37,925 nucleotides of DNA from Candidatus Omnitrophota bacterium (GCA_016209715.1 JACQVP010000066.1:1-37925), one strand, 5' to 3'. Positions 2,537 to 37,925 are shown, numbered from the stretch's first letter. Numbers and translations: made by a program. The notes: generated from the letters alone by a model not told the origin.

Positions 2537-5500
2537 TTAATTCAAAAGAACGTTCGTTTCCGGTTCCTTGTTCGCGATCGGCTCACCGGCCGGCGCACTG
2601 TCATTTAATTTAACCGAAACGATCTTGGACACTCCCGCCTCTTCCATCGTCACCCCGTACAACGAATCACCGGCCGCAATGGTCTTCCGGTTGTGTGTCA
2701 CAATGATGAATTGCGAGGTCGACAAAAATCCCCGTACCACCTCCAAAAAGCGATGCACGTTCGATTCGTCGAGCGGGGCGTCCACCTCGTCCAGAACGCA
2801 AAACGGCGAAGGCTTGATCTTGAACAGGGCAAAAAGAAGCGCCGTAGCCGTGAGCGCCTTTTCTCCGCCGGAAAGCAGCGAGATCGATTGGTTCTTCTTC
2901 CCCGGGGGCCTGACCATGATGTCTATGCCGGACTCGAGGGGGTTGTTCTCGTCGATCAAAAAGAGTTCCGCCTCTCCTCCCCCGAACAGGACCCGGAAAT
3001 AATCGCGGAAAGCGGCCTGGACAGCGGAAAATGTATCCTCAAAGAGCTTCTTCGTCTCCCGGTTAATCTTCCGGATCGCCTCCAGGAGGTCTTCACGGCC
3101 TTTTTCAAGATCGAGCTTCTGACCGCTGAGAAAATCAAACCGCTCTTTCAAGGAGTCGAATTCCTCGATGGCCAGAAGATTGACGGTGCCGAGCGACTGG
3201 AGCTTTTCCTTCAACTCCGAGATCTCCTGCTCCAATTCGGAGACCGAATTATTTTGCAGGTCGAAACCGGTCTTGTCAAGGGCGCTCAAATCAATCTGAT
3301 AGGTTTGTTTCATACGCTCCTGGATCGCCGTTTTCTTGTAGCCGATCTCCATTTCGCGCATCTGACAATTTCTTTCCGATTCGCGGGCGGTGTCGCTCCG
3401 CTTCTTCGCGCCCTCCAGGCGGGAGAGCAACTCAGCCCGCCGGGAAACAAGCTCCGACTTCTCCAGACTCGCCTGAGCGGCTTTGGCCTCCTCAGCGGCA
3501 ATCAAGGACGACAATTCAGCGATCTCGGCCGCGCGCCGTTCATTTTCCAACACGATTTCCTCTGATACCCGCACGTTGTCGGCAATCTGAGACGACCGCT
3601 TGTCCTGAAGCTCGTTTTCCGAGGACACGTTCCGATGAAGCATCTCATTGGAGTCCGCGAGGTACCGTTCACGGTCCAACAGCCGGGCCAGGCGTTGTTC
3701 CTCCTCGGTGAAGGTCTTGAAAAATTGCTCCTTCTGCTGAGCCAGAGCGCTCAATTCCTCGGCCTCCGCCTTGAGGCGGGCCTGATGATTATTTTCAGCC
3801 TCAACCCTGCGGGCCAATTCGTCCGTCAGGCCTTGTTTTTTCAGGGCCGACTCTTCAATCTCGGACTTGATCAAGTCGATTTCCCTCATTCCTTGAAGGA
3901 TTTCTGCCGACAATTCTTCGGCGCGGGCCTGGAGCGACTGCTTCAATTTGGAGAAACTTTGATATTGGATCTCAGCTTCGACGATCGCTTTTTCCAGGCG
4001 CTCGACCTCCTGCACGGCCACGGAAATTTGAGCGTCGAGAACGCCGCGCTCTTCCCGCCGGAGAGCGATAATTTGAGAGGCGCGGGCCAGTTTGTCCCGC
4101 AAATCCGACTGGCTCTTTTTTCGATCCAGGGTCCGCACGTTGGGCAGGGACCCAAAGTAGCGGATTTTTTTGCCGGGCCCCAGCACATACCCGTCTTGCG
4201 TAACGATCCGAACGCCGTTCGCCGACGCCGCCCATTGGGACAGCCGTTCCTCGTTGAGAGGCTCCGCGACCATGACGTGCCGGAGGTGTTCCTCGACAAG
4301 CCCCGCATAACCCGGCTGGACCGAAACAAATTCCGCAGCTCGGCCCTGGATACCGGTCAAATCGGGCGTTGCATGATCGTCGAGGGGGGCGTCCACGGGA
4401 GAGTCGATGAGAAGCGCGATCTCCTTGGTCTTGCTGGCCCGAGCAAACTCCAGCACCTTCAGGGCCTTGTCATGGTCTTCGACGATCAACGCGCAGGCCC
4501 AATCCGCCATCGCGGCCCGTATGGCGCACTCATAACCGGGCCGGACTTCGAGGATGTCCCAAAAAGATTTCACCAGGCCCCAGAGCTCGGACCCTTCCCG
4601 CCGGCTTTCATCCAGCACGTGCTGCGGGAACGCGTCGTCAAACGCGCCTTGCTCCTGCAATTCCGATAAAAGCGTCAACTGCGATTCCGTTTCCTTGATC
4701 TCGGTATTCACCCGGATGATTTCGTCCTCGAGTTCCCGGCGCTGCGTCTCCAAACCCGCCAACGATGTCTGCCTGGCCTCGAATTCCAGCTTCCGCTCGC
4801 CTTGCGACAGATCAGGGCCCGATTCCCCGCCCAATTCGGCGACCCTCCTCAGGCATTCCTCCCGCTCCCGGGACAGACGCTCAATCAGCTCCTCCGTCCG
4901 GTTCTTCCGCGCATTCTCGCCGTGCACTTCGATTTCGAAGGCATGGATTTGATTTTTCAACTCGGTAACGGAATGGGCCGCCTGAAACACAAGACCCTGA
5001 AGCTCCTTCACCGCATTTTCCTTCGCCGTGAAGGATTCCCGCGCTTCGTCGTAGAAGCGCTCGGCGTGGTCCACCCGGGATTTTAGGCCCTGGATCTCCT
5101 GAACCACCGCTTCAATTTCCGCCTTCTTCCGCGCGATCTCTTCCTCGAAGGCCGCGATTCGGACGCGTCCCACTTCAAGGTCCTTTTGCAATCCCTGCGT
5201 GCTCCGCTCGAGGTCCTGCTTTTTATCCCGATTCACCCGCAGACGTTCTTCGTTCTGAGAGTGCCGGAGTTTGAGGTCGTACTTGGCCTTTTCGATTTTC
5301 GAAGAGATTTCCTCCATGGCAAAGACCCGGGAGTCCATCTCCTTGAACCGGACCTCTTCGTCGGCCAGCCCCCCCTCGAGGAGATTGATTTCATCCCTCA
5401 AGAGGTTCCGCGCCGCAACCAAGGCCTCGTTCTCGCGATCGAGGGCCTCGATGTCCATGAACGCCTTCCGGGATTCAAGAGCTTTCAGTTGATCGTATTT

Positions 5501-6297: not shown

Positions 6298-7467
6298 CTA
6301 GGCTTTTTTGCGGTTCAAAAGGAGCTGGTCGATATAGACCCGGCCGCTGCGAGCCGGTCCCGATATTTGATCGTCGATCAGCAAAACCAGCGAATCGGCT
6401 CCTTGGGGAGCGCGAAAATTAAGCGGGTATTGAAACACGAGCCACTGGTTCTTGAGGCCCGAAATTTTTTGCCTCCAGACGGCCTCGCCGCCTTCACGAA
6501 ACTCAATGAAGACTCCATCCGAAATTCCCTGCTCTTCGTCACCGCGTAAAACCACGGAAAAACCGGAAAAGCGCGACAAATCGATGTCTTTGAGACGGAA
6601 AAGAATGCCCACCGAGGCGGGGACTTGAAAAAGTTCGTAATCGAGAGCGAGGACCTTCCCCCGGCCGGGAATAAACATCAATTTTTCCTCGGCGAAGCCT
6701 TCCTGCGGGCGGAACCACGCCGACCGGTCCATCTGCAGCTCCTGAATCAGCACCGGCATTCCGACCTCCTGAGAGCGCCTGACATCAGGGGCCTTCCCGT
6801 CGCGGGCGGAAACGCCGGCTCGTTGGCCCTCCGGGGCCCGGAAAAACATCAAACCGATCAACGCCAGCAAAAGCAGGATCAAAAAAGCGATGATCATGAG
6901 CCATCTCTTTTTTTGCTGCTCCTGCCCCGCCGCTTGCAGCCGGGAGCGCAGCTCCGGGAGATAATCGCGGAACTGATGGTTGCAAATCGGCCAGTCTATC
7001 TCGCGATACCCTTCCGCTTCCAAGGCGTTGATGCGCTCCATGAGTTTCATCGTGTCCTGGCCCAGGATTCGGCTGACGGCGCCCATACTCATCCCGTACT
7101 GGCGGGTCAAGACGAGCAGGCTCCGGTCAAAAAGGTCCAGATTCCCCCAGCCGCCGCCTTCCGTAGAGGGGCGGCGTGCCATCTCGCGCTGAAGCACCAG
7201 GTTCGCGGACCTGAAAAGCTCCGTGGCGACGTGGTCGCGATAGGCATACTTGAATAATTTCCGGTAAAAAATCAGAAAGGCCTCGATCAGGAGAGATCCG
7301 TGATGGTCCGCTTCCCGGTCCATCAGGTACAGGTATTCCAAGAGAGTCCCGGCATACCTCTCAAACAAGTCCTCGAAGGCCGGAAGATTCCCTCCCCGGC
7401 TGTGCTCTATGAGCATCTCATCGGTGGCTTGGATTTGTATTCTGGGAGAATTCACTGCGGGTTGCAT
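6298..7467 (-). CDS. ECF sigma-factor-like domain, TM helix and carbohydrate-binding-like domain fusion
   Basis: Residues ~15-100 resemble sigma region 2 (GGNLPAFEDLFERYAGTLLEYLY...). Residues ~110-150 resemble region 4 (LFDRSLLVLTRQYGMSMGAVSRILGQDTMKLMERINAL). TM helix ~189-209 (WLMIIAFLILLLLALIGLMFF). The C-terminus has the pattern LKDIDLSRFSGFSVVLRGDE...GVFIEFREG...KISGLKNQWLVFQYPLNF...GRVYIDQLLL. Confidence 0.6.
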   Translation of the reverse strand: MQPAVNSPRIQIQATDEMLIEHSRGGNLPAFEDLFERYAGTLLEYLYLMDREADHHGSLLIEAFLIFYRKLFKYAYRDHVATELFRSANLVLQREMARRPSTEGGGWGNLDLFDRSLLVLTRQYGMSMGAVSRILGQDTMKLMERINALEAEGYREIDWPICNHQFRDYLPELRSRLQAAGQEQQKKRWLMIIAFLILLLLALIGLMFFRAPEGQRAGVSARDGKAPDVRRSQEVGMPVLIQELQMDRSAWFRPQEGFAEEKLMFIPGRGKVLALDYELFQVPASVGILFRLKDIDLSRFSGFSVVLRGDEEQGISDGVFIEFREGGEAVWRQKISGLKNQWLVFQYPLNFRAPQGADSLVLLIDDQISGPARSGRVYIDQLLLNRKKA

Positions 7468-27627: not shown

Positions 27628-28824
27628 TTAAGAATGTTTCGCGGCCGCCTCATTTTCGAGCAACGCCGCGACGCCCGGGAGGACCTTTCCCTCGAGAAAT
27701 TCGAGGGACGCGCCTCCGCCCGTGGAAATATGGGACATCTTGTCTTCCAAATCAAACACCTTGATCGCGCTGGCCGTGTCGCCGCCGCCGATCACGCTGA
27801 CCGCGCCGGAATCGGCAATGGCCTGGGCCACCGCCCGGCTGCCGCCGGCGAAATTTTTCCATTCGAACACTCCCACCGGGCCGTTCCAGAGCACCATCTT
27901 GGCGGCGCCTATTTCCCGGCGGAAAAGCTCGACCGTCCGGGGCCCGATGTCGAGCCCCATCCAGCCGTCTTCAATTTTATCGACGGTCTTGAACTTCGCC
28001 GTCTCGCTGAAAGAATCCGCGACGACATGATCGACCGGGAGGACAATTTTCACTTTGCATTGAGCCGCCTTCCCGAGGATGCCCTCGGCGATGGCCATTC
28101 CCGGCTGATCGAGCTTTGAGCTGCCAATCGGGATCCCCTGCACTTTGAGAAAGGTGTACGCCATGCCGCCGCCGATGAGCAAGCAGTCGACTTTGGCAAG
28201 CAGGTTCTCGATGACTTTGATCTTGTCCGAAACCTTCGATCCGCCGAGGATGGTGACAAACGGACGTTCCGGCCGGGTCACCACGCGCGTGAGATAATCG
28301 ATTTCCTTGGCCAAAAGCAGGCCGCTCACGGCCGGCAAATAGCGGGTCACGCCGTCGACGGAGGCATGAGCGCGATGGGCGGCACCGAAGGCGTCGTCCA
28401 CGTAAACCTCGCCGAGCGAGGCCAATTCCTTGGCAAACGAGGGGTCATTCTTTTCCTCTTCCGCGTGATAGCGGAGATTTTCCAGCAAAACGACCTCCCC
28501 TTCCTTCATCGCTAAGACTTCCCCCTTGACCGCTTCCCCGACACAGTCCCCGAGCAGCCGCACCGGCCTCGACAAAAGTTCTCCCAATCGGATGGCCGCC
28601 GGCTTCATGCTGCAGGATGCGTCCTTGCCCTTGGGCCTTCCGAGATGGGACATGAGCACGAGTTTGCCTCCCTGGGCCAGGATATAACGAAGGGTGTCCA
28701 GCGTCTTCACGATCCTGGCGTCGTCGGTGATTTTTCCCTGCGGGTCCAGAGGCACGTTGAAATCCACCCTCGCCAGGACGCGCTTTCCCGTGAGATCGAT
28801 ATCTTTGACGGTTTTCTTATTCAT
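27628..28824 (-). CDS. pgk: Phosphoglycerate kinase
   Basis: KRVLARVDFNVPLD; LMSHLGRPKGK; NLRYHAEEEKNDPSFAKELA; GGDTASAIK; STGGGASLEFLEGK. Confidence 0.98.
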   Translation of the reverse strand: MNKKTVKDIDLTGKRVLARVDFNVPLDPQGKITDDARIVKTLDTLRYILAQGGKLVLMSHLGRPKGKDASCSMKPAAIRLGELLSRPVRLLGDCVGEAVKGEVLAMKEGEVVLLENLRYHAEEEKNDPSFAKELASLGEVYVDDAFGAAHRAHASVDGVTRYLPAVSGLLLAKEIDYLTRVVTRPERPFVTILGGSKVSDKIKVIENLLAKVDCLLIGGGMAYTFLKVQGIPIGSSKLDQPGMAIAEGILGKAAQCKVKIVLPVDHVVADSFSETAKFKTVDKIEDGWMGLDIGPRTVELFRREIGAAKMVLWNGPVGVFEWKNFAGGSRAVAQAIADSGAVSVIGGGDTASAIKVFDLEDKMSHISTGGGASLEFLEGKVLPGVAALLENEAAAKHS

Positions 28825-30616
28825 GGGATTTGAGACGGTCCTTGAGGTCGTTCAATTCTTGACGGAGCGCAGCCGGCAAACGGTCGCCAATCTTCCCGTA
28901 AAATTCTTCAATTTCCGCGACCTCCTGAAGCCAGCCTTCCCGGTCCACGGCCAGGAGCTGCGCCGCGGCGGAAGAAGGCAAATTGAGGCCCGACAGGTCG
29001 ATCGCTCCGGGTGCCGGCAAATAGCCGATCGTGGAATCGACCGCTCCGGCCGCACCTTTGGTCCGCTCGACAATCCAGCGCAGCACGCGGATGTTTTCGC
29101 CGAATCCGGGCCACAGGAAGTCCCCGTTCTGGTCCCGGCGGAACCAATTGACGTGAAAGATTTTCGGGGCGTGTTGCAGGCGTTTGCCGACGGTGAGCCA
29201 GTTCTGAAAATAATCTCCGACATGATAACCGCAAAACGGGAGCATCGCCATGGGGTCCCGCCGGGTGACCCCGGTCGGTCCTTGCGCGGCGGCCGTCGTT
29301 TCAGAGGCCATCGAGGAACCGATGAATGTCCCATGCTGCCAGTTCTTGGATTCATATACGAGCGGGGCCAGGCGGGAGCGGCGGCTGCCGAAAACGATGG
29401 CGCTGATCGGAACGCCGCGCGGATTCTGCCATTCCCGCGAGATGCTGGGGCATTGGGCCGCCGGGGCCGTAAAACGGGCGTTGGGATGCGCGGCCTTGGA
29501 CGGGGACGCTGGCGTCCAGGTCTTGCCCCGCCAGTCTAACGCTTCGGCCGGGGGCTCTTCATCCATGCCCTCCCACCACACCGTGCCGTCCGGCTTCTTG
29601 GCGACATTGGTGTAAATGCTGTTTTTCTGAATGGTGCGCATGGCATTGGGATTGGATTTATAGCTGGTCCCAGGCGCCACGCCGAAAAAACCGGCTTCCG
29701 GATTGACTGCCCACAGTCTTCCGTCTTCCCCCACCCGCATCCAGGCAATGTCATCGCCCACCGTCCAGACCCGGTAGCGCGACTGCGATTCGGGCGGGAT
29801 CAGCATGGCAAGATTGGTCTTGCCGCATGCGCTCGGAAATGCCGCCGCCACGTAGGTCACGTTTCCGGCGGGATCTTCCAGGCCGAGAATCAGCATGTGC
29901 TCCGCCAGCCAGCCCTCGTGTTTGCCCAAATAGCTCGCGATGCGGAGGGCCAGGCACTTCTTCCCGAGCAAGGCGTTGCCGCCGTAGCCCGATCCGACGC
30001 TCCAGATGGTGTTGTCTTGGGGAAAATGGCAAATATAGCGGCGATTGACATCGAGATCGGCAAGACCGTGAAGGCACCGGGTAAAATCGTTGGACTCTCC
30101 CAGCGTTTGCCAGGCGATATTGCCCATTCGGGTCATGATGCGCATGTTGAGCACCACATACACGCTGTCCGTGACTTGGACGCCGACTTTCGAAAACGGC
30201 GAGCCGGCAGGCCCCATCACGAAAGGCACGACGTAAAGAGTGCGGCCGGCCATGGAACCCTTGAAAATTTCACGAAGCTTGGCATATGCCTCGGAGGGCT
30301 CCATCCAATTGTTGGTGGGGCCGACATCTTCTTTTTGGGGAGTGCAAATAAAGGTGAGGTGTTCGGTGCGGGCAACGTCGTCTTCATGACTGCGGTGGAA
30401 ATAACAGCCCGGAAGCTTCGCTTGATTGAGCGGCTCGAGCGCCCCGGTACGCACGGCGAGCTCGGTGAGGCGGACACTCTCCTCTTCGCTCCCGTCGCAC
30501 CAATAAACGCTCGCCGGTTCGCACAAAGACGACATCTCCTCCACCCAGGCCTTGACCAGGGGATTGGGAGACGCATTCAAATGTTTCTCTGCTGTCATGT
30601 TCGGTGGGAATGGCAT
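28817..30616 (-). CDS. pckG: Phosphoenolpyruvate carboxykinase (GTP)
   Basis: AAFPSACGKTNLAMLIPP; GDDIAWMRVGEDGRLWAVNPEAGFFGVAPGTSYKSNPNAM; NWFRRDQNGDFLWPGFGENIRVLRWI. A start at ATG 30598 (MTAEKHL) is also possible. Confidence 0.96.
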   Translation of the reverse strand: MPFPPNMTAEKHLNASPNPLVKAWVEEMSSLCEPASVYWCDGSEEESVRLTELAVRTGALEPLNQAKLPGCYFHRSHEDDVARTEHLTFICTPQKEDVGPTNNWMEPSEAYAKLREIFKGSMAGRTLYVVPFVMGPAGSPFSKVGVQVTDSVYVVLNMRIMTRMGNIAWQTLGESNDFTRCLHGLADLDVNRRYICHFPQDNTIWSVGSGYGGNALLGKKCLALRIASYLGKHEGWLAEHMLILGLEDPAGNVTYVAAAFPSACGKTNLAMLIPPESQSRYRVWTVGDDIAWMRVGEDGRLWAVNPEAGFFGVAPGTSYKSNPNAMRTIQKNSIYTNVAKKPDGTVWWEGMDEEPPAEALDWRGKTWTPASPSKAAHPNARFTAPAAQCPSISREWQNPRGVPISAIVFGSRRSRLAPLVYESKNWQHGTFIGSSMASETTAAAQGPTGVTRRDPMAMLPFCGYHVGDYFQNWLTVGKRLQHAPKIFHVNWFRRDQNGDFLWPGFGENIRVLRWIVERTKGAAGAVDSTIGYLPAPGAIDLSGLNLPSSAAAQLLAVDREGWLQEVAEIEEFYGKIGDRLPAALRQELNDLKDRLKSHE

Positions 30617-30708: not shown

Positions 30709-33700
30709 TCAGGCGGCGCGGCCGACCGCTTCCGCTTCCTCTTTGGCGCGGAGGAAGGAGGCGACAAATCCCTGGATATTGAGCCGCACCGTGCCCTCCA
30801 GCAAATCAAATTGGTCCGCCAAGAACCGGGTCCGGTCATCGTCCTCAATGAACCGGCGCAGTTTTTCCGGGCTGGAACGCACCGCCAGCGCTTCCTCATC
30901 GCCGAGCGAGGCCAGCCGAATGAGAACGACCAGCGCCGCCGTATAGGCCAGGATTTGAAGCCGCCGGCTCGGCAAGCGCCCGATCTCCGCCATCAGGGTG
31001 TTGAATTGCTGCGGGATCGCCTCCGCCCCGAGATCAGCCGTGAAGGCGAAAGCGGGGCTCTCTCCGAGGCCGCGCTTCACGACTTTTTCCAGCGCCCCCC
31101 GCAAATTCAAACGATCATAGAGCTGGGTCGAGAGCTGGGGGAAGGCCTTCCATTCGGCGCGCTTCAACGGCTGGCTCTTTTCATGCAGGACCTCCAATCT
31201 TTGAATGAAGGGCGCGAAACGAGCCAAAACGCCCAGCACGATTTCGATGTCCGATTCGGGATGATTGATGGCGAGGACCAGCCGCCGGCCTCGGTCGCCG
31301 GCTTGAAGCGCCGCCAGGGCCCCGTCCAATCGGGACTCAAACACGGCCAGCTTGCCTTCATCCAGGTCCCGGATCATTTCCGCCAGCCGTTCATCCGCCA
31401 AATCCACAGTCTGCACTGCCATTCCGAGGACCCGGCTCCGGATACTGACCGCTAATCCTTCTATCTCCCGCGGTTGGATCACGCCCTCATCCAGCGAGGC
31501 TTGAAAATACCCTTTCAATTCACGATCCCAATCTTCCGAGACGAGAAATTGGAGGATCGCTTCCGTGGTTTCCAGGGCGTGAATGGCCGCCCGCACGCGA
31601 TCCGCGTCCGCTTCGAGGGCTCGGTCGAGAGCCTGGAATCGTTTTTCGAAATATTCCCGGTACATTCGCTCGGCTTGGCTTATTCTCTCCTCCGGGGAAC
31701 CCGTCTGAGCATTGAGATAATCCGCCAGCTCCCGGGGAGGCATAACCTCCGCTAACTCCGCTGAAACGTCGATGCCGGGCTCCGTGAGCTCCTCACCGGC
31801 GGAGGCCGCGCGGGGCGCGTTTCCCGACTCCAGCCATAAGTCCGCTTCGCTGGACTCATCCGTGTCCGGCATTGAACTTTGGGTCACCGGCTCGCCTTTT
31901 TGCCGTTCACGCTCGCGATCCACTCTCAATTGTTCGACGTAGGAGGAGAGGCCATCCAGCACTTCCGATCTGCTCCCCGCCCGGAAAATTCGTTTCAATT
32001 CTTCTACTGAACCGTACTCGGCGAAATAGGCCATTTCCTCTTTTCCGCCGCCGTTCCGGGACAGTTCCGCGATGATTTTGTCACTGAGATTTTTATCCGC
32101 GGCCAGTCCGGTCAATTTGAGAAGGGCGGCGACAAAGGTCTCGGTGACCTCGCGCCGGATCGCGTTCACGGTTCCATAGTCCCCTTTGATCCGTGCCAGG
32201 ACTTCGAAGAGGGGCTGAATATAGTCCTCCGCGCGGCTTTGCGGTTGGGCCTGGATGACTTGCCTCACCAAAAGCCCGCCTTCCGCCACGGCCGATGAGG
32301 CGTGCGAACCTTTCACATTCACCCGGGCCAGGCCTCGAATGACCACCCGTGCCGCCTCCTCCCGCTCTGCCGCGCTCATTTTCGGATACACCAAACCCAG
32401 CGAGTGCCATAAAATCGCGCGCACTTTGTCCCAGGCGGCCTTTCGATTACTTTCTTGAACGGGGGTTCGCTCCGACGCCTCAAGAATGACCGGAACCAGC
32501 TCCCGCACGGCGCCTTCGTCCAAACCGGGAAGTTTTGCCTTGAGCACCTTGTCGATATAAAAGCGGCCGTTCACCGCGTCCTGACGCACGCCCGCCACGC
32601 CTTCCAGTTCGCGGATCAGGTCCCGCGGATCCATCGCCTGATATTGGTTCAAATCTCTCCCGACGGAAGAAGCGGAAGGAGCGGCGGACTGTGCCATCCA
32701 CAGCGACGCGTCCGCATCGCCTTCCTTGGCGGCCCCGGGAGCGCTCAATCCGCCCGGGACCTCTTTCGCCGCTTCCAGCAAAAGCTGTTCACGGTACTCC
32801 CCGATGGCCTGCGGTATTCGAGCGGGATCGGCCTTCAAAATTCTCCGCAGTTCGGCCAAATCGCCGTAATGAGAGAACAAAAGCCGGAATTCCCTGTTCC
32901 TTTCCACCCAAATCTCTAAAAACTCACTCAGCGCTTTCCCGGCATCATCCGGAGTTCGCGCACCCACCGGCGCTTGCCACTCCCCGCCCGAGCTCCGTCG
33001 AAGGGCCTCTAAAAGAGCCCAGCGGAGCCGGTCGATTTCATTCGCCGACTGCACTTTGGCCGCCGCGTCCGGACGGATATCTTTCAACGCTTCCAAGATT
33101 GCATTTTCGACTCCTTCCAGCTGGGCGACCTCGATCCGCTGAATCACGGGGCGCAGAGCGTCGGCGATCATCGCGTACGAAGCCAAGGGATGATTCGAGA
33201 TCGCTTCGCTGTCGAGGCGCGTTCTCTGCATGGCCCTCATCAGGGCATTCGCGGCGACCGGGAGCTCGTCGGACGAGACCCGGCCGGCGATTTCCTTCAC
33301 GACGGTCGACAATCCCCCGCGGCTCCGGTTGCCCAAAGCTGAAAATTCGTCATAGCTGTCCAGCGCCTCAAGAACATCTCCCAACATAGGCCCCAGGTCC
33401 CCGGTTTCCGTCTGACGGCTGAGGTCCACCAAGGATTGAACGATCCGAAAACGAAGGGACCCTTGCGGCTCGTCAACGCCTTTCAGGGACTTGAAACGGG
33501 CAAGCGCTTCCGCCACCCGAATCCTTTCCGGATAATCACGGCCAAGCGACGCGGCTGAACCGCCCCCCGCCATCCAGAGCTCATCGCCGGCATTGGGAAC
33601 GTCATCCGGCACTTCGGCGCCCGGCACGGAGACCGCCTTTGCAGCCGCCCTCTCCGCAATTCCCTGCAGTTGTTGCGCATACCGCGCAAGTCCCCCGGAG

Positions 33701-36700
33701 GCCTCGCCACCGGTCTTGAGGATCCTGTTCAGCTCGGCCAGATCCCCGTGCTTCAAGATCAAAGATTCCCGCTCCTCGGTAATGATCGCCAGGAGTTTCA
33801 AAAGTTCCGAGCTCAGCTGCCGGTCCAGGAGCCGGGCCGTTTCGGGGAATTGAAGTTTCCACCGTTCCAGGATCCCGTCCCGGAGAAGACCGGTGTACGC
33901 GGCCTTGTTCCTGAGCCGGATGCCCGCCGGCGAAGACTGGCTGACGGCATACGCCTCAATCATGATTTCCAGGAGGTCCGCCGCGTCCTCCGGCGCCATG
34001 CGCTTGGCCAGCATGGTCATGAGGATGCCGAACAAATAGCGCTTTTCGGCTTTGACCAGCGGATCCCCGGTAACATTCGCCAACGCCTCGCGGACGGCTT
34101 GCATCAGCGCGGAGACCCGTTCCGGACCGAAGGGGACGCCCTCCCGCTCCGCGATCCTGTCAAAAGCGCGGTTGCGCGGATTCCGCGAGTCCGACTTGGA
34201 ATCATCTTTGGCCATCGCGTCGATCTGGACCCGGATGTCATAGGCGACGGAAAAGGACTGCCCGTACGCGCTTAGTTTTTCGATCAATGAATCCAGCGCT
34301 CCATCGTTTTGCCGGCGTCTCATTTTCTCGACGTAATCCGTGGGCAGAGACACGGGAATCATCAACTGCTCCCGTTCGGACCGGACGATTTCATCCATTG
34401 CGGCCAAAGAGCCATAATCAGGAAACACGGAGGAATCTTCCTCCCTTAAAGGCGCGCGACCGAAAATCGACCGCAAAACCGCCAGAAGCGGACCGTATTC
34501 CTGACTATCGATGGCGCTTTGCATTGCCGCCCGAAGATTCGCCTCTGACGCCGTCAGGCGCGACACGAAGAGACTTTCACTCGTCTCGGCATCCGGACGG
34601 TACAAATAATAATGGGCCAGCAATGTTCCTACCGCCTCCCTGGCGCCCTCGGCCGGCTTCGAAAGGCCGCGGATGCGCTTCAGGACGCCCAGGTAATCTT
34701 CAATCGCTCCGGCCGGCTCCGGCAGCGCGACCAGGATGTTGAGCAACAGGACCAAATTTTCCGCCAGCACCTGCATCAAGGAATAGTTCTCCGGCGAGGA
34801 TTCAGTCAAAGAAACTAGCGTCTGTTTGAACTTGAAATAAAGCTGACGGCTCAATTCGTTGTCCCGATGGACAGCGATCGGTAGGAGCGCGGACGCGAGG
34901 GCCTCCCGCGTAGAATGCGCCCTCTTCGACACTCCGGGCACAGTCAAAAGCCGCTTCTCGGTCCGCAGGAGAAAGGCCTCGCGTTCCCGCGCGGGCAAAT
35001 AATGGGCCAACTGAACGCTGGCCTCCGCGAGAGACAAGCGCGCCGAATCCGCCGCCTCATCGCGGCCCTCGACACGGTCATAGGCTTCCTCGATCCAGCG
35101 CCCGATCACGGCCGCTTGATCCTCCCCTTCGTTCATGATCCGATGACGCAAGGACGATACGATGGCCGTCCTGGCCCGATGGTCCTGGCCCTTCCCGCCC
35201 GACACTTCGGAAAATGCCTTTTGGAGCTGTTCGAAAGACATCTTTCCGTAATTTTGCCCCATCGACGAGGCCTGGGCGCCCGTTCCGGTATCCGGCCCCT
35301 CACGCGCCGCGAGCCACATCGCACCTGAAGGTCTCTCATCCTCTCCGGATCCCTTTAAAGATTCAGCGGACCGGGCATAACCCGCGAGCAATTGGGCCCG
35401 ATAGTCGGCCAGCGACGCGCGGATGGCGTTTTCATCGCCGGTTCGAAGAATTCTGCGCAGTTCTTCCCAATCCCCATATTTCGGGAAGAGCGGGATTTCT
35501 CGCTCATCCTCCGAAGTCAACGCAATCAGATCGCGCAGATCCGTGAAATAGAAAGGTTCCCGCACGGGGCCCCGGCCGGGCAGATAGGAATCCGGAATGG
35601 TCACGCGCTCGGACCGGAGCAGCATCACCTTCAGAATGTCCGCCGCCGCCTCTCTCGCCGCGGACCGATTGGGGGAATCCCCCGCCAGCCCGTCGAGAAA
35701 TTCCAGGACCTGCCGGACCTTGCGCGGGTCCGCCGCGGCGGGACCGTTTTGAACGGTCATTCTCATCGCATTGGCCAAGGCGTAGCGGGCCTGATTGGCC
35801 ATTTCGCTCTCCCCCACCACTCCGTTCATGGTTTGCCAGATCCTTCCCCAAATTTCCTCGAGCCCGGCCTCATCGGCCACGGCGGCAAATGTATAAAAGA
35901 AGGACGAGAGCGTCCAGCGGGTCCGATTGGCGCTTTCTACCGCGCGAAACCCGTCGATCAAGCCGAACAAGGAATCGCGCATGCCCATATATTTGTTGGT
36001 CCGCATCACCAGCGAATCCCGGAAAAACAAGCCGCCCAGGCCCGAGAGCAGCGCGCTCCTCACGGCATAATCCCTCGCCTCATGGCCGCTGATATTGATC
36101 ACTTCCTGCCAGAACCGGTCATACAGCCCGTCCCTCTTATCCTCGCGCACCATTTCCGCAGCGGCCTTGAGCAGCAAGCCGCCGCTCAGCCCCACTCCCT
36201 CCCAATCGAGCACAGTCACTTCCGGCCCGCTCTCCAGGCGGGCCCGGCTCAGGACGGACAAAGCCAGATCGATCATGGCGTCGGCTTCTTCCGGCGTCGC
36301 GTTTTTTGCGGCGTCCCTCAACCGTTCAAATTTCCGCATCACGCGATGAAAATGAAATTTTTCCTCCCCGTTCACCGCTTTGATCTCTTCCATCAATTTC
36401 CCGAGCGACGACGACTGCGGGCCGGCAAGCCACAGGGGCCCTTCGTCATTTTCGCCGTCCCCTTCATCCTCCTCCGGTTTCTTTCCGGCCCGCTCCGCGG
36501 ACATCTTCAATTGGACCAGATAAATGACGAGGCCCTCCCGGATGCTGACGGCCGAGCCCGTCCGCAGAATGCGGCGGATTTCATCCAGGTCCCCATATCG
36601 GGCGAACAGAGATTCTTCCCCGCCTCCGGTTTCCTTAAAGAAATCACCGAGAAGAATGGCCACCGAATTCACGGCTGAATCGCCCGCGTCCGCGAATTCG

Positions 36701-37896
36701 GGCTGCGTGCGAACCAAGGCCTCCGCCAGCAGGTTTGCGACCGCGCGCAAGGACTCCGGGCTGTGCATCCCGCGCGAATTCTTCAAGGCCGCCTGAGCGG
36801 CTTCAATCAGGTCTTCCCGCCTGGCAGACTGGACACTGGGAACCCAAGTCTGTAAGCGCGCGGCCATTTGCCGGAGGGATATCTGGACCGGTTTACTTTC
36901 CCCCGCCGCATTCCGGAAAAGATCGATCATGCGTTCCCACATTTCAGTCCGAAAATCGCGCGAGGGCAGATGGGTGACCGCGGAGATGTACGCGTCCGCG
37001 AGAGAGGCCCTCGATTCCCGCGCCTCCTCAATCTCCGGCAGAGCCCTCAGGGCCCGGTCTGAAGCCCGCACGATCCGCGAGACCGCGTTCAAATCCGCCT
37101 GGTAAACGAAGGGCGCCAGATCGGCCAGGACATTTCCCAAAACGCTGCGAAGCCCATTCGAAATATCCCCGCTGTCCAGCAACGCCAACGCGCGGTCCAT
37201 CACTTTTACGATTTCTTCTTCCCGCAGACGCATCGCCAGGCTCTTCACGGCCTCCTCGGCCGCGCGCAAAGCCTCCCCGGTTTTATTTGAATTTGCCGCC
37301 GCCGCCTCGAGGGCGCCGAACAATGGTTCGATCATCTCGAACGACAACCCGGCGAGTAAAGGATTGTCTCTCTTTTCCGGGTCACTCCATCCCATTCCGC
37401 CAAGTTCGCGGAGCTTGCCAAACTCCCGGATCAGCCAAAAGATCACGATCCTGCTCTCCTGAGCGGCCAATCTGGAGGACCGGAATTTCGGCAGGAGCCG
37501 CTCCAGGAGTTCCAGGGTCGTCCGGGCGCGAACGGCCTCAGAGACGAGGTCGTGAAGTTTATTTTGATACAGAACCAGGGCGATCTTACCGCTCCTGAAT
37601 TCCTCGTCTTCCGTGAGGGTCTCTTTGCCGGCAATTGCCGCCAATTCTTTGATGAGCTCCTCGGCGTTCAATGTTTCCACTTCCTCACCGAGCGATTGCG
37701 CGGAAAGCCACAACGAACCCGAATCGCCCGCACGCTGGTCGCTTTCGCGGATGGGATCTTGACGGCGGGACGCGGTCATTTGGGACTGAACCTCCAATTG
37801 GCGCGCGTAAGCCCGAATGGATTCTCCCGCTTCCTCCGCTCCGGATTCCGCGCCGCGAAGCAACCGGTCGATCTCAGCCGTGTCTAAAATATCCAT
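30709..37896 (-). CDS. Giant multi-module helical repeat protein of unknown function (>=2395 aa; ORF open to the right window edge)
   Basis: Single uninterrupted reading frame with normal amino-acid composition, seven copies of a YGDLxELRRIL-type motif, six of them paired with an LW[LM][AS]...SLG-type motif. No Shine-Dalgarno is visible at ATG 37896 and the frame stays open upstream (SELYINKDV|MDIL...). Confidence 0.9.
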   Translation of the reverse strand: MDILDTAEIDRLLRGAESGAEEAGESIRAYARQLEVQSQMTASRRQDPIRESDQRAGDSGSLWLSAQSLGEEVETLNAEELIKELAAIAGKETLTEDEEFRSGKIALVLYQNKLHDLVSEAVRARTTLELLERLLPKFRSSRLAAQESRIVIFWLIREFGKLRELGGMGWSDPEKRDNPLLAGLSFEMIEPLFGALEAAAANSNKTGEALRAAEEAVKSLAMRLREEEIVKVMDRALALLDSGDISNGLRSVLGNVLADLAPFVYQADLNAVSRIVRASDRALRALPEIEEARESRASLADAYISAVTHLPSRDFRTEMWERMIDLFRNAAGESKPVQISLRQMAARLQTWVPSVQSARREDLIEAAQAALKNSRGMHSPESLRAVANLLAEALVRTQPEFADAGDSAVNSVAILLGDFFKETGGGEESLFARYGDLDEIRRILRTGSAVSIREGLVIYLVQLKMSAERAGKKPEEDEGDGENDEGPLWLAGPQSSSLGKLMEEIKAVNGEEKFHFHRVMRKFERLRDAAKNATPEEADAMIDLALSVLSRARLESGPEVTVLDWEGVGLSGGLLLKAAAEMVREDKRDGLYDRFWQEVINISGHEARDYAVRSALLSGLGGLFFRDSLVMRTNKYMGMRDSLFGLIDGFRAVESANRTRWTLSSFFYTFAAVADEAGLEEIWGRIWQTMNGVVGESEMANQARYALANAMRMTVQNGPAAADPRKVRQVLEFLDGLAGDSPNRSAAREAAADILKVMLLRSERVTIPDSYLPGRGPVREPFYFTDLRDLIALTSEDEREIPLFPKYGDWEELRRILRTGDENAIRASLADYRAQLLAGYARSAESLKGSGEDERPSGAMWLAAREGPDTGTGAQASSMGQNYGKMSFEQLQKAFSEVSGGKGQDHRARTAIVSSLRHRIMNEGEDQAAVIGRWIEEAYDRVEGRDEAADSARLSLAEASVQLAHYLPAREREAFLLRTEKRLLTVPGVSKRAHSTREALASALLPIAVHRDNELSRQLYFKFKQTLVSLTESSPENYSLMQVLAENLVLLLNILVALPEPAGAIEDYLGVLKRIRGLSKPAEGAREAVGTLLAHYYLYRPDAETSESLFVSRLTASEANLRAAMQSAIDSQEYGPLLAVLRSIFGRAPLREEDSSVFPDYGSLAAMDEIVRSEREQLMIPVSLPTDYVEKMRRRQNDGALDSLIEKLSAYGQSFSVAYDIRVQIDAMAKDDSKSDSRNPRNRAFDRIAEREGVPFGPERVSALMQAVREALANVTGDPLVKAEKRYLFGILMTMLAKRMAPEDAADLLEIMIEAYAVSQSSPAGIRLRNKAAYTGLLRDGILERWKLQFPETARLLDRQLSSELLKLLAIITEERESLILKHGDLAELNRILKTGGEASGGLARYAQQLQGIAERAAAKAVSVPGAEVPDDVPNAGDELWMAGGGSAASLGRDYPERIRVAEALARFKSLKGVDEPQGSLRFRIVQSLVDLSRQTETGDLGPMLGDVLEALDSYDEFSALGNRSRGGLSTVVKEIAGRVSSDELPVAANALMRAMQRTRLDSEAISNHPLASYAMIADALRPVIQRIEVAQLEGVENAILEALKDIRPDAAAKVQSANEIDRLRWALLEALRRSSGGEWQAPVGARTPDDAGKALSEFLEIWVERNREFRLLFSHYGDLAELRRILKADPARIPQAIGEYREQLLLEAAKEVPGGLSAPGAAKEGDADASLWMAQSAAPSASSVGRDLNQYQAMDPRDLIRELEGVAGVRQDAVNGRFYIDKVLKAKLPGLDEGAVRELVPVILEASERTPVQESNRKAAWDKVRAILWHSLGLVYPKMSAAEREEAARVVIRGLARVNVKGSHASSAVAEGGLLVRQVIQAQPQSRAEDYIQPLFEVLARIKGDYGTVNAIRREVTETFVAALLKLTGLAADKNLSDKIIAELSRNGGGKEEMAYFAEYGSVEELKRIFRAGSRSEVLDGLSSYVEQLRVDRERERQKGEPVTQSSMPDTDESSEADLWLESGNAPRAASAGEELTEPGIDVSAELAEVMPPRELADYLNAQTGSPEERISQAERMYREYFEKRFQALDRALEADADRVRAAIHALETTEAILQFLVSEDWDRELKGYFQASLDEGVIQPREIEGLAVSIRSRVLGMAVQTVDLADERLAEMIRDLDEGKLAVFESRLDGALAALQAGDRGRRLVLAINHPESDIEIVLGVLARFAPFIQRLEVLHEKSQPLKRAEWKAFPQLSTQLYDRLNLRGALEKVVKRGLGESPAFAFTADLGAEAIPQQFNTLMAEIGRLPSRRLQILAYTAALVVLIRLASLGDEEALAVRSSPEKLRRFIEDDDRTRFLADQFDLLEGTVRLNIQGFVASFLRAKEEAEAVGRAA
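31795..32028 (-). repeat. Protein repeat block 7
   Basis: YFAEYGSVEELKRIFRAGSRSEVLDGLSSYVEQL-linker-LWLESGNAPRAASAG. Confidence 0.8.
32659..32880 (-). repeat. Protein repeat block 6
   Basis: LFSHYGDLAELRRILKADPARIPQAIGEYREQL-linker-LWMAQSAAPSASSVG. Confidence 0.85.
33541..33762 (-). repeat. Protein repeat block 5
   Basis: LILKHGDLAELNRILKTGGEASGGLARYAQQL-linker-LWMAGGGSAASLG. Confidence 0.85.
34321..34428 (-). repeat. Protein repeat block 4 (diverged; no LW motif)
   Basis: VFPDYGSLAAMDEIVRSEREQLMIPVSLPTDYVEKM; the second half is not recognisable. Confidence 0.5.
35257..35490 (-). repeat. Protein repeat block 3
   Basis: LFPKYGDWEELRRILRTGDENAIRASLADYRAQL-linker-MWLAAREGPDTGTGAQASSMG. Confidence 0.85.
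36400..36609 (-). repeat. Protein repeat block 2
   Basis: LFARYGDLDEIRRILRTGSAVSIREGLVIYLVQL-linker-LWLAGPQSSSLG. Confidence 0.85.
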
Positions 37897-37925
37897 AACA
37901 TCTTTATTGATATAGAGTTCAGACA
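37687..37925 (-). repeat. Protein repeat block 1 (N-terminal, partial)
   Basis: SELYINKDVMDILDTAEIDRLLRGAESGAEEAGESIRAYARQL-linker-SLWLSAQSLG. Confidence 0.65.

Follow-up and report, generated by a model that had tools for sequence, protein, structure and literature searches.

A giant modular Omnitrophota protein with a lineage-specific junction motif, a candidate secreted polyprotein

The giant frame and its helical units

We analysed a 37,925-nucleotide stretch of DNA from Candidatus Omnitrophota bacterium (GCA_016209715.1 JACQVP010000066.1:1-37925), hereafter the window, which is the entire contig C50 of a draft metagenome-assembled genome (MAG; 115 contigs, 69% complete). Its right end is occupied by a giant open reading frame (ORF), one uninterrupted frame of 2,404 codons at positions 30709–37923 on the minus strand, with its stop codon at 30709–30711 and its 5′ end truncated by the end of the contig; all window features located below also lie on the minus strand. 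The 2,404 aa of the window protein are thus the C-terminal part of a longer chain; with the 5′ end missing, the ATG at 37896 cannot be taken as evidence of a start. Comparison with other genomes placed this protein in a family of Omnitrophota giants with a common plan: a constant front (Sec signal and head domain), then cargo modules whose make-up varies, often a constant C-terminal domain, and mostly an -AA ending. A short junction motif was sited in the linkers between modules, and it was uniform in all giants examined within one genome and different between lineages.

The first-pass annotation of the window had described a single frame filling the right 7.2 kb, of no recognisable family, in housekeeping surroundings. 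This description was borne out, with the minus strand and the 5′ truncation added as corrections. The window protein gave no match above noise in searches of Pfam, NCBIfam, and PDB, and the neighbouring genes encode PEPCK, PGK, TIM, SecG, an Opp-type ABC system, GlgC, RecG, fatty-acid synthesis proteins, and SMC.

The visible part of the protein is built of helical units joined by linkers. A YGDL-type motif occurs as Y443GDL, Y816GDW, Y1170GSL, H1392GDL, Y1686GDL, and Y1970GSV, plus a cut first copy, so that all seven positions read earlier are present, offset by 9 from the present residue numbering. The linkers are closed by a second recurring motif, LW[LM]A...[AS]S[LMVA]G, which had been missed and which turned out to be the most important feature of the protein. 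Helical unit 1 with its YGDL...LWLA linker spans residues 80–508 (36400–37686) and unit 2 with its linker residues 509–889 (35257–36399). These are followed by a helical double unit (residues 890–1461; 33541–35256), in which the YGSL copy at 1170 has no LW or SLG after it, and by two further units with linkers at residues 1462–1755 (32659–33540) and 1756–2043 (31795–32658). The linkers matched one another clearly (BLASTP E down to 2.4e-9), and two of the unit bodies (residues 1461–1754 and 1755–2042) aligned over 215 aa at 24.7% identity (E 1.4e-6, BLASTP). Thus the tandem duplication proposed earlier is clear for the linkers and weak for the bodies, while the description of the protein as giant, modular, and helical is supported.

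An AlphaFold2 (AF2) model of one helical unit (residues 1756–2043) together with the C-terminal domain was computed from alignment rows of the C-terminal domain only, because joint alignments with the helical units were misaligned; the input for the unit was effectively single-sequence. In this model the unit was all-helical at low confidence, with a predicted local distance difference test score (pLDDT) of about 55, and the linker was disordered. The tandem units, predicted to be all-helical, may resemble HEAT/ARM alpha-solenoid proteins. No HEAT/ARM profile of Pfam exceeded the cut-off in the window protein, and a weak HEAT_EF3_N match was found below the cut-off (E 0.014) in the sister fragment C53. 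Unlike HEAT/ARM proteins, most of the window units end in a YGDL-LWLA-SLG linker that has no Pfam match.

C53 was one of two further giant frames recovered from the same genome by searching with the window protein. It is a 6,762-bp contig with one frame open at both ends and the same helical units as C50. The other, C10, is a 2,725-aa frame whose domains differ from those of C50 and comprise a NUDIX domain and a weak glycosyl-transferase-3-like match. The motif [AGQST]SLG recurs in C50, C53, and C10, mostly after LW[LMF] in C50 and C53. No contig overlap was found among the three, and it may be that C53 lies ahead of C50 with a short gap between them. C53 (L010) also contains two transmembrane (TM)-like segments (residues 16–34 and 625–643), each beginning at most ~12 residues beyond an SLG junction, as though every module carried its own N-terminal anchor. 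Rather than being a repeat protein on its own, the window protein is one variant within a family, many of whose members carry quite different cargo.

Constant ends and variable cargo

The last 240 aa of the window protein (30712–31431) form a conserved C-terminal domain common to other giant ORFs, alpha/beta and then helical in the model, and close with a conserved Ala-Ala (30712–30717) in the sequence GRAA. The window protein matched the profile of this domain at E 6e-77, a value obtained with a profile that includes the window sequence itself. C10 and the window protein have the domain in common by pairwise comparison (28%, E 1.2e-13). The profile found matches in 15 of the 48 genomes of the order. 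The ORFs that the domain closes in relatives reach 9,879 aa, and the aligned C-termini ended in AA in 15 of 15 cases. An [AS]A ending was found in 28 of 43 head-domain ORFs with a real stop, compared to 14 of 387 other ORFs (Fisher 7e-23). Neither Foldseek of the C-terminal/helical-unit model against PDB nor a PDB sequence search with the C-terminal domain gave a significant match.

Complete family ORFs open with a Sec-type signal followed by a conserved head domain of ~650 aa. Each of the 48 genomes searched in the order had the head domain, mostly within ORFs thousands of aa long, and it was present in 146 of 292 genomes sampled across the phylum, in ORFs of up to 13,298 aa. The named relatives are Omnitrophota, including the single-cell genome Omnitrophus fodinae, and an earlier guess at this lineage was right. 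In the genome of the window, eight head-domain ORFs were found, all eight with Sec-type signal-like starts. If the missing front is taken to be like those of these paralogs, Sec export of the window protein is likely.

Two other readings were considered. An assembly artefact might be suspected in a draft MAG of this fragmentation and completeness, but the same architecture recurs in many independent MAGs and in the O. fodinae single-cell genome, and each of the other two family f1 genomes has a related giant upstream of its PEPCK gene, which makes an artefact extremely improbable. A cytoplasmic alpha-solenoid scaffold had been proposed by the first-pass annotation on the grounds that no signal peptide or TM segment was seen. 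The helical units would suit such a scaffold, and the visible part indeed carries no signal. However, the N-terminus lies off the contig, the head-domain ORFs of the same genome have Sec-type signals, C53 has TM-like segments, and the C-terminal domain and -AA are common to members with signals; we consider a cytoplasmic scaffold very unlikely.

The head domain is probably a divergent enzyme of the TIKI/EreA/ChaN superfamily, judged from its sequence motifs. The conserved residues D85-x-H87, E115, R436, and GGFH464 were nearly invariant in 38 aligned rows. The spacing between H87 and E115 is 28 residues, the same as in Bcr135 (H85, E113) and VvRRSP (H3902, E3930), and the second histidine, like a basic residue that is also conserved, has its counterpart there (PMC6254334). 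Sub-threshold Pfam matches were obtained to TraB (0.016), Erythro_esteras (0.02), and ChaN (0.0086), as well as to DUF5694 and DUF5682. In the head domain the first Glu of the 2His/2Glu-type catalytic set is replaced by D, and the domain differs from known members (TraB/PrgY, erythromycin esterase, ChaN, VvRRSP) by a long helical insertion and by its place at the Sec-exported front of giant chains. Its AF2 model had a pLDDT of 87, and a PDB sequence search with the domain gave no significant match.

Shorter head-domain ORFs of ~705–755 aa were observed on the opposite strand at seven loci, mostly ending in A or AA, and in several of these loci the short ORF was divergent from a long head-domain ORF. 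Weaker relatives of the head domain were found at eight loci in Elusimicrobia/Endomicrobia, where three long ORFs also end in RAA or SAA.

Between these ends, the cargo varies widely. Recognised modules include histidine-kinase-type ATPase domains, GNAT acetyltransferases, methyltransferases, a metallophosphatase, an FAD oxidoreductase, NUDIX, transaldolase, M48, and AAA domains, and most cargo modules of the giant ORFs scanned had no Pfam match. A giant ORF of another genome (G031 contig C24, L037–L038) showed six matches to AAA_5 (dynein/midasin-type) at residues about 2900–5250, within an AAA module where 4,033 aa pass with no junction motif; it is possible that this is a bacterial midasin-like module.

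The exchange of cargo can be seen at the locus itself. The downstream neighbour of the giant ORF is a GTP-type PEPCK gene (28817–30616), and the PEPCK genes of the other two family f1 genomes, G002 (L226, contig C10 of that genome, 11981–19597) and G001 (L227, contig C87, 2–4555), are likewise preceded by giants, with different cargo. Only the last ~425 residues of the window protein aligned with the G001 copy (E 7e-13), and none of it aligned with the G002 copy. Since the giants upstream of PEPCK in the three genomes differ in cargo, the locus appears to have been kept while the cargo was exchanged. Elsewhere in the window, a 389-aa ORF beside the fatty-acid synthesis genes (6301–7467) had no Pfam match at E 0.001, and no RNA families or tRNAs were found across the window.

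Junction motifs and their lineage code

Six junctions were located in the window protein, three of them strict xSLG and three degenerate. Junction 1 (AQSLG, residues 75–79; 37687–37701) follows LWLS, and it is followed by junction 2 (SSSLG, residues 504–508; 36400–36414), junction 3 (ASSMG, residues 885–889; 35257–35271), junction 4 (AASLG, residues 1457–1461; 33541–33555), and the degenerate junctions 5 (ASSVG, residues 1751–1755; 32659–32673) and 6 (AASAG, residues 2039–2043; 31795–31809). The last of these lies between a helical unit and the C-terminal alpha/beta domain, in a stretch predicted to be disordered in the AF2 model (pLDDT 27–36). Junction flanks were low in hydrophobic residues (p 4e-8, 2e-17), and no junction fell inside a detected Pfam domain, compared to 3.5 expected (p 0.02, a modest test). 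In the genome of the window, the motif was found 18 times in 7,383 aa of giants and 4 times in 10,067 aa of housekeeping proteins (Fisher 1.8e-4).

Two motif classes emerged from over-represented peptides in the giants, [AGQST]SLG and R[SA]ExR. The SLG class was found in G000, G001, and G002 (family f1) and in G016 (f7), and the R[SA]ExR class in the f4 genomes examined, G007 (f6), and G019 (f8). Across about 55,000 aa from the four genomes of the SLG class, R[SA]ExR did not occur once, compared to 0.9–3.1 occurrences per 1,000 aa in the others, and the two classes were thus almost mutually exclusive between lineages. The patterns were chosen after the sequences had been seen, so the p-values should be read as measures of enrichment and not as blind tests; the same classes recurred in genomes added after the patterns were chosen.

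The codons of the junction leucine and glycine vary synonymously, which indicates that selection acts on the protein. A DNA-level element at the junction was rejected on the same ground, though each of the 52 f1 junction serines was encoded by TCN (p 2e-8 against a background of 28.6% AGY). The all-TCN serine suggests a shared ancestry of the junctions, as would be expected if they were remnants of module duplication or shuffling, descended from a common linker and with little present function. Against this, S-L-G has been kept with varied synonymous codons while the flanks diverged past recognition, which argues that selection maintains the motif, and the motif is uniform across the unrelated modules and the head paralogs of one genome. 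We regard remnants of this kind as an improbable explanation.

In a tree of the head domain, both motif classes occurred in each main paralog group (backbone support moderate, 86/97). The motif class therefore tracks the genome and not the head paralog, which points to a recogniser acting in trans. By the same observation, cis-only processing by the head domain is weakened.

Export, possible cutting, and the nature of the giants

The best explanation, to which we give about an even chance, is that these proteins are giant secreted modular polyproteins of Omnitrophota, in which a factor specific to the lineage reads the junctions. The chain in the window would be exported through Sec, and its junctions would be acted on by this recogniser, for which a trans-acting protease is the likeliest candidate and the TIKI-type head domain the second. 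Cutting there would release modules that may work extracellularly or inside a partner cell; the place of action is our inference. The helical units of the window protein would be one cargo type, HEAT-like in kind. The architecture is directly observed; cutting at the junctions is a reading to which we give somewhat less than even probability.

Several points weigh against the polyprotein explanation. The front of the window gene falls off contig C50, and any Sec signal and head domain of its own would lie outside the visible part. Fifteen of the 43 head-domain ORFs lack the -AA ending, and many of the cargo domains that were recognised belong to types that usually work in the cytosol and depend on ATP, which is unexpected in a chain exported through Sec. 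Some long ORFs from outside the order have neither motif, and neither was enriched in the two outside genomes examined. Two protease families considered as a shared reader, C11 (0 of 48 genomes) and S41 (18 of 48), do not fit as universal processors. No TIKI-superfamily Pfam profile matched the head domain over the cut-off, so that its assignment comes from motifs and sub-threshold matches, and Foldseek of the head model against PDB gave no significant match, the best superfamily match being EreC at rank 13 (E 2.6).

The strongest competing explanation is that the giant stays whole as a surface or periplasmic protein, such as a coat, adhesin, or scaffold, in which the junctions would bind an assembly, anchoring, or export partner and the helical units of the window would be a scaffold or binding cargo module. 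Any lineage-specific binding partner would explain the motif data equally well, the helical units suit a scaffold, and an adhesin or coat is the published view of Omnitrophota giants in the passages of Seymour et al. 2023 (PMC10066038) drawn on here. On the other hand, the many unrelated enzyme domains in the cargo would be unusual for a coat, and the window protein had no adhesin domain match in Pfam. We consider an uncut giant a real but lesser possibility.

The polyprotein explanation has a partial parallel in a known system. MARTX toxins are single, very long exported chains that carry several unrelated effector domains, released by cutting between them. The likeness is by analogy only and would lie in an exported multi-module giant chain with proposed release by cutting, while the junction motifs, head, and tail of the Omnitrophota giants are unrelated, and neither RTX repeats nor a cysteine protease domain was matched by Pfam in the giant ORFs scanned. 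Giant ORFs of Omnitrophota have been reported as poorly conserved and of unclear function, and they resemble the present family in belonging to the same phylum, in their very long ORFs, and in having few annotated domains; a head or C-terminal end common to the giants, or a code at junctions, is not mentioned in the relevant passages of that account (Seymour et al. 2023, PMC10066038). The common plan of the family was not found in the open-access literature searched, which does not prove its absence.

Few features of Omnitrophota are as puzzling as their giant ORFs. In a bolder extension, to which we give a fair but less than even chance, each Omnitrophota genome would export through Sec a set of giant precursors built from interchangeable enzyme and scaffold modules, and a single cleavage code for the whole genome, of SLG or RSExR type and read by a co-evolving protease, would free the modules, perhaps as effectors against partner cells. 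The shared head, the shared tail end, and the lineage-specific junction code make one recognisable family of these giants. The junction code lets any giant ORF be sliced into modules for annotation, and the front offers a candidate enzyme. If the chains are cut, they would be giant exported bacterial polyproteins whose site code has been switched between lineages.

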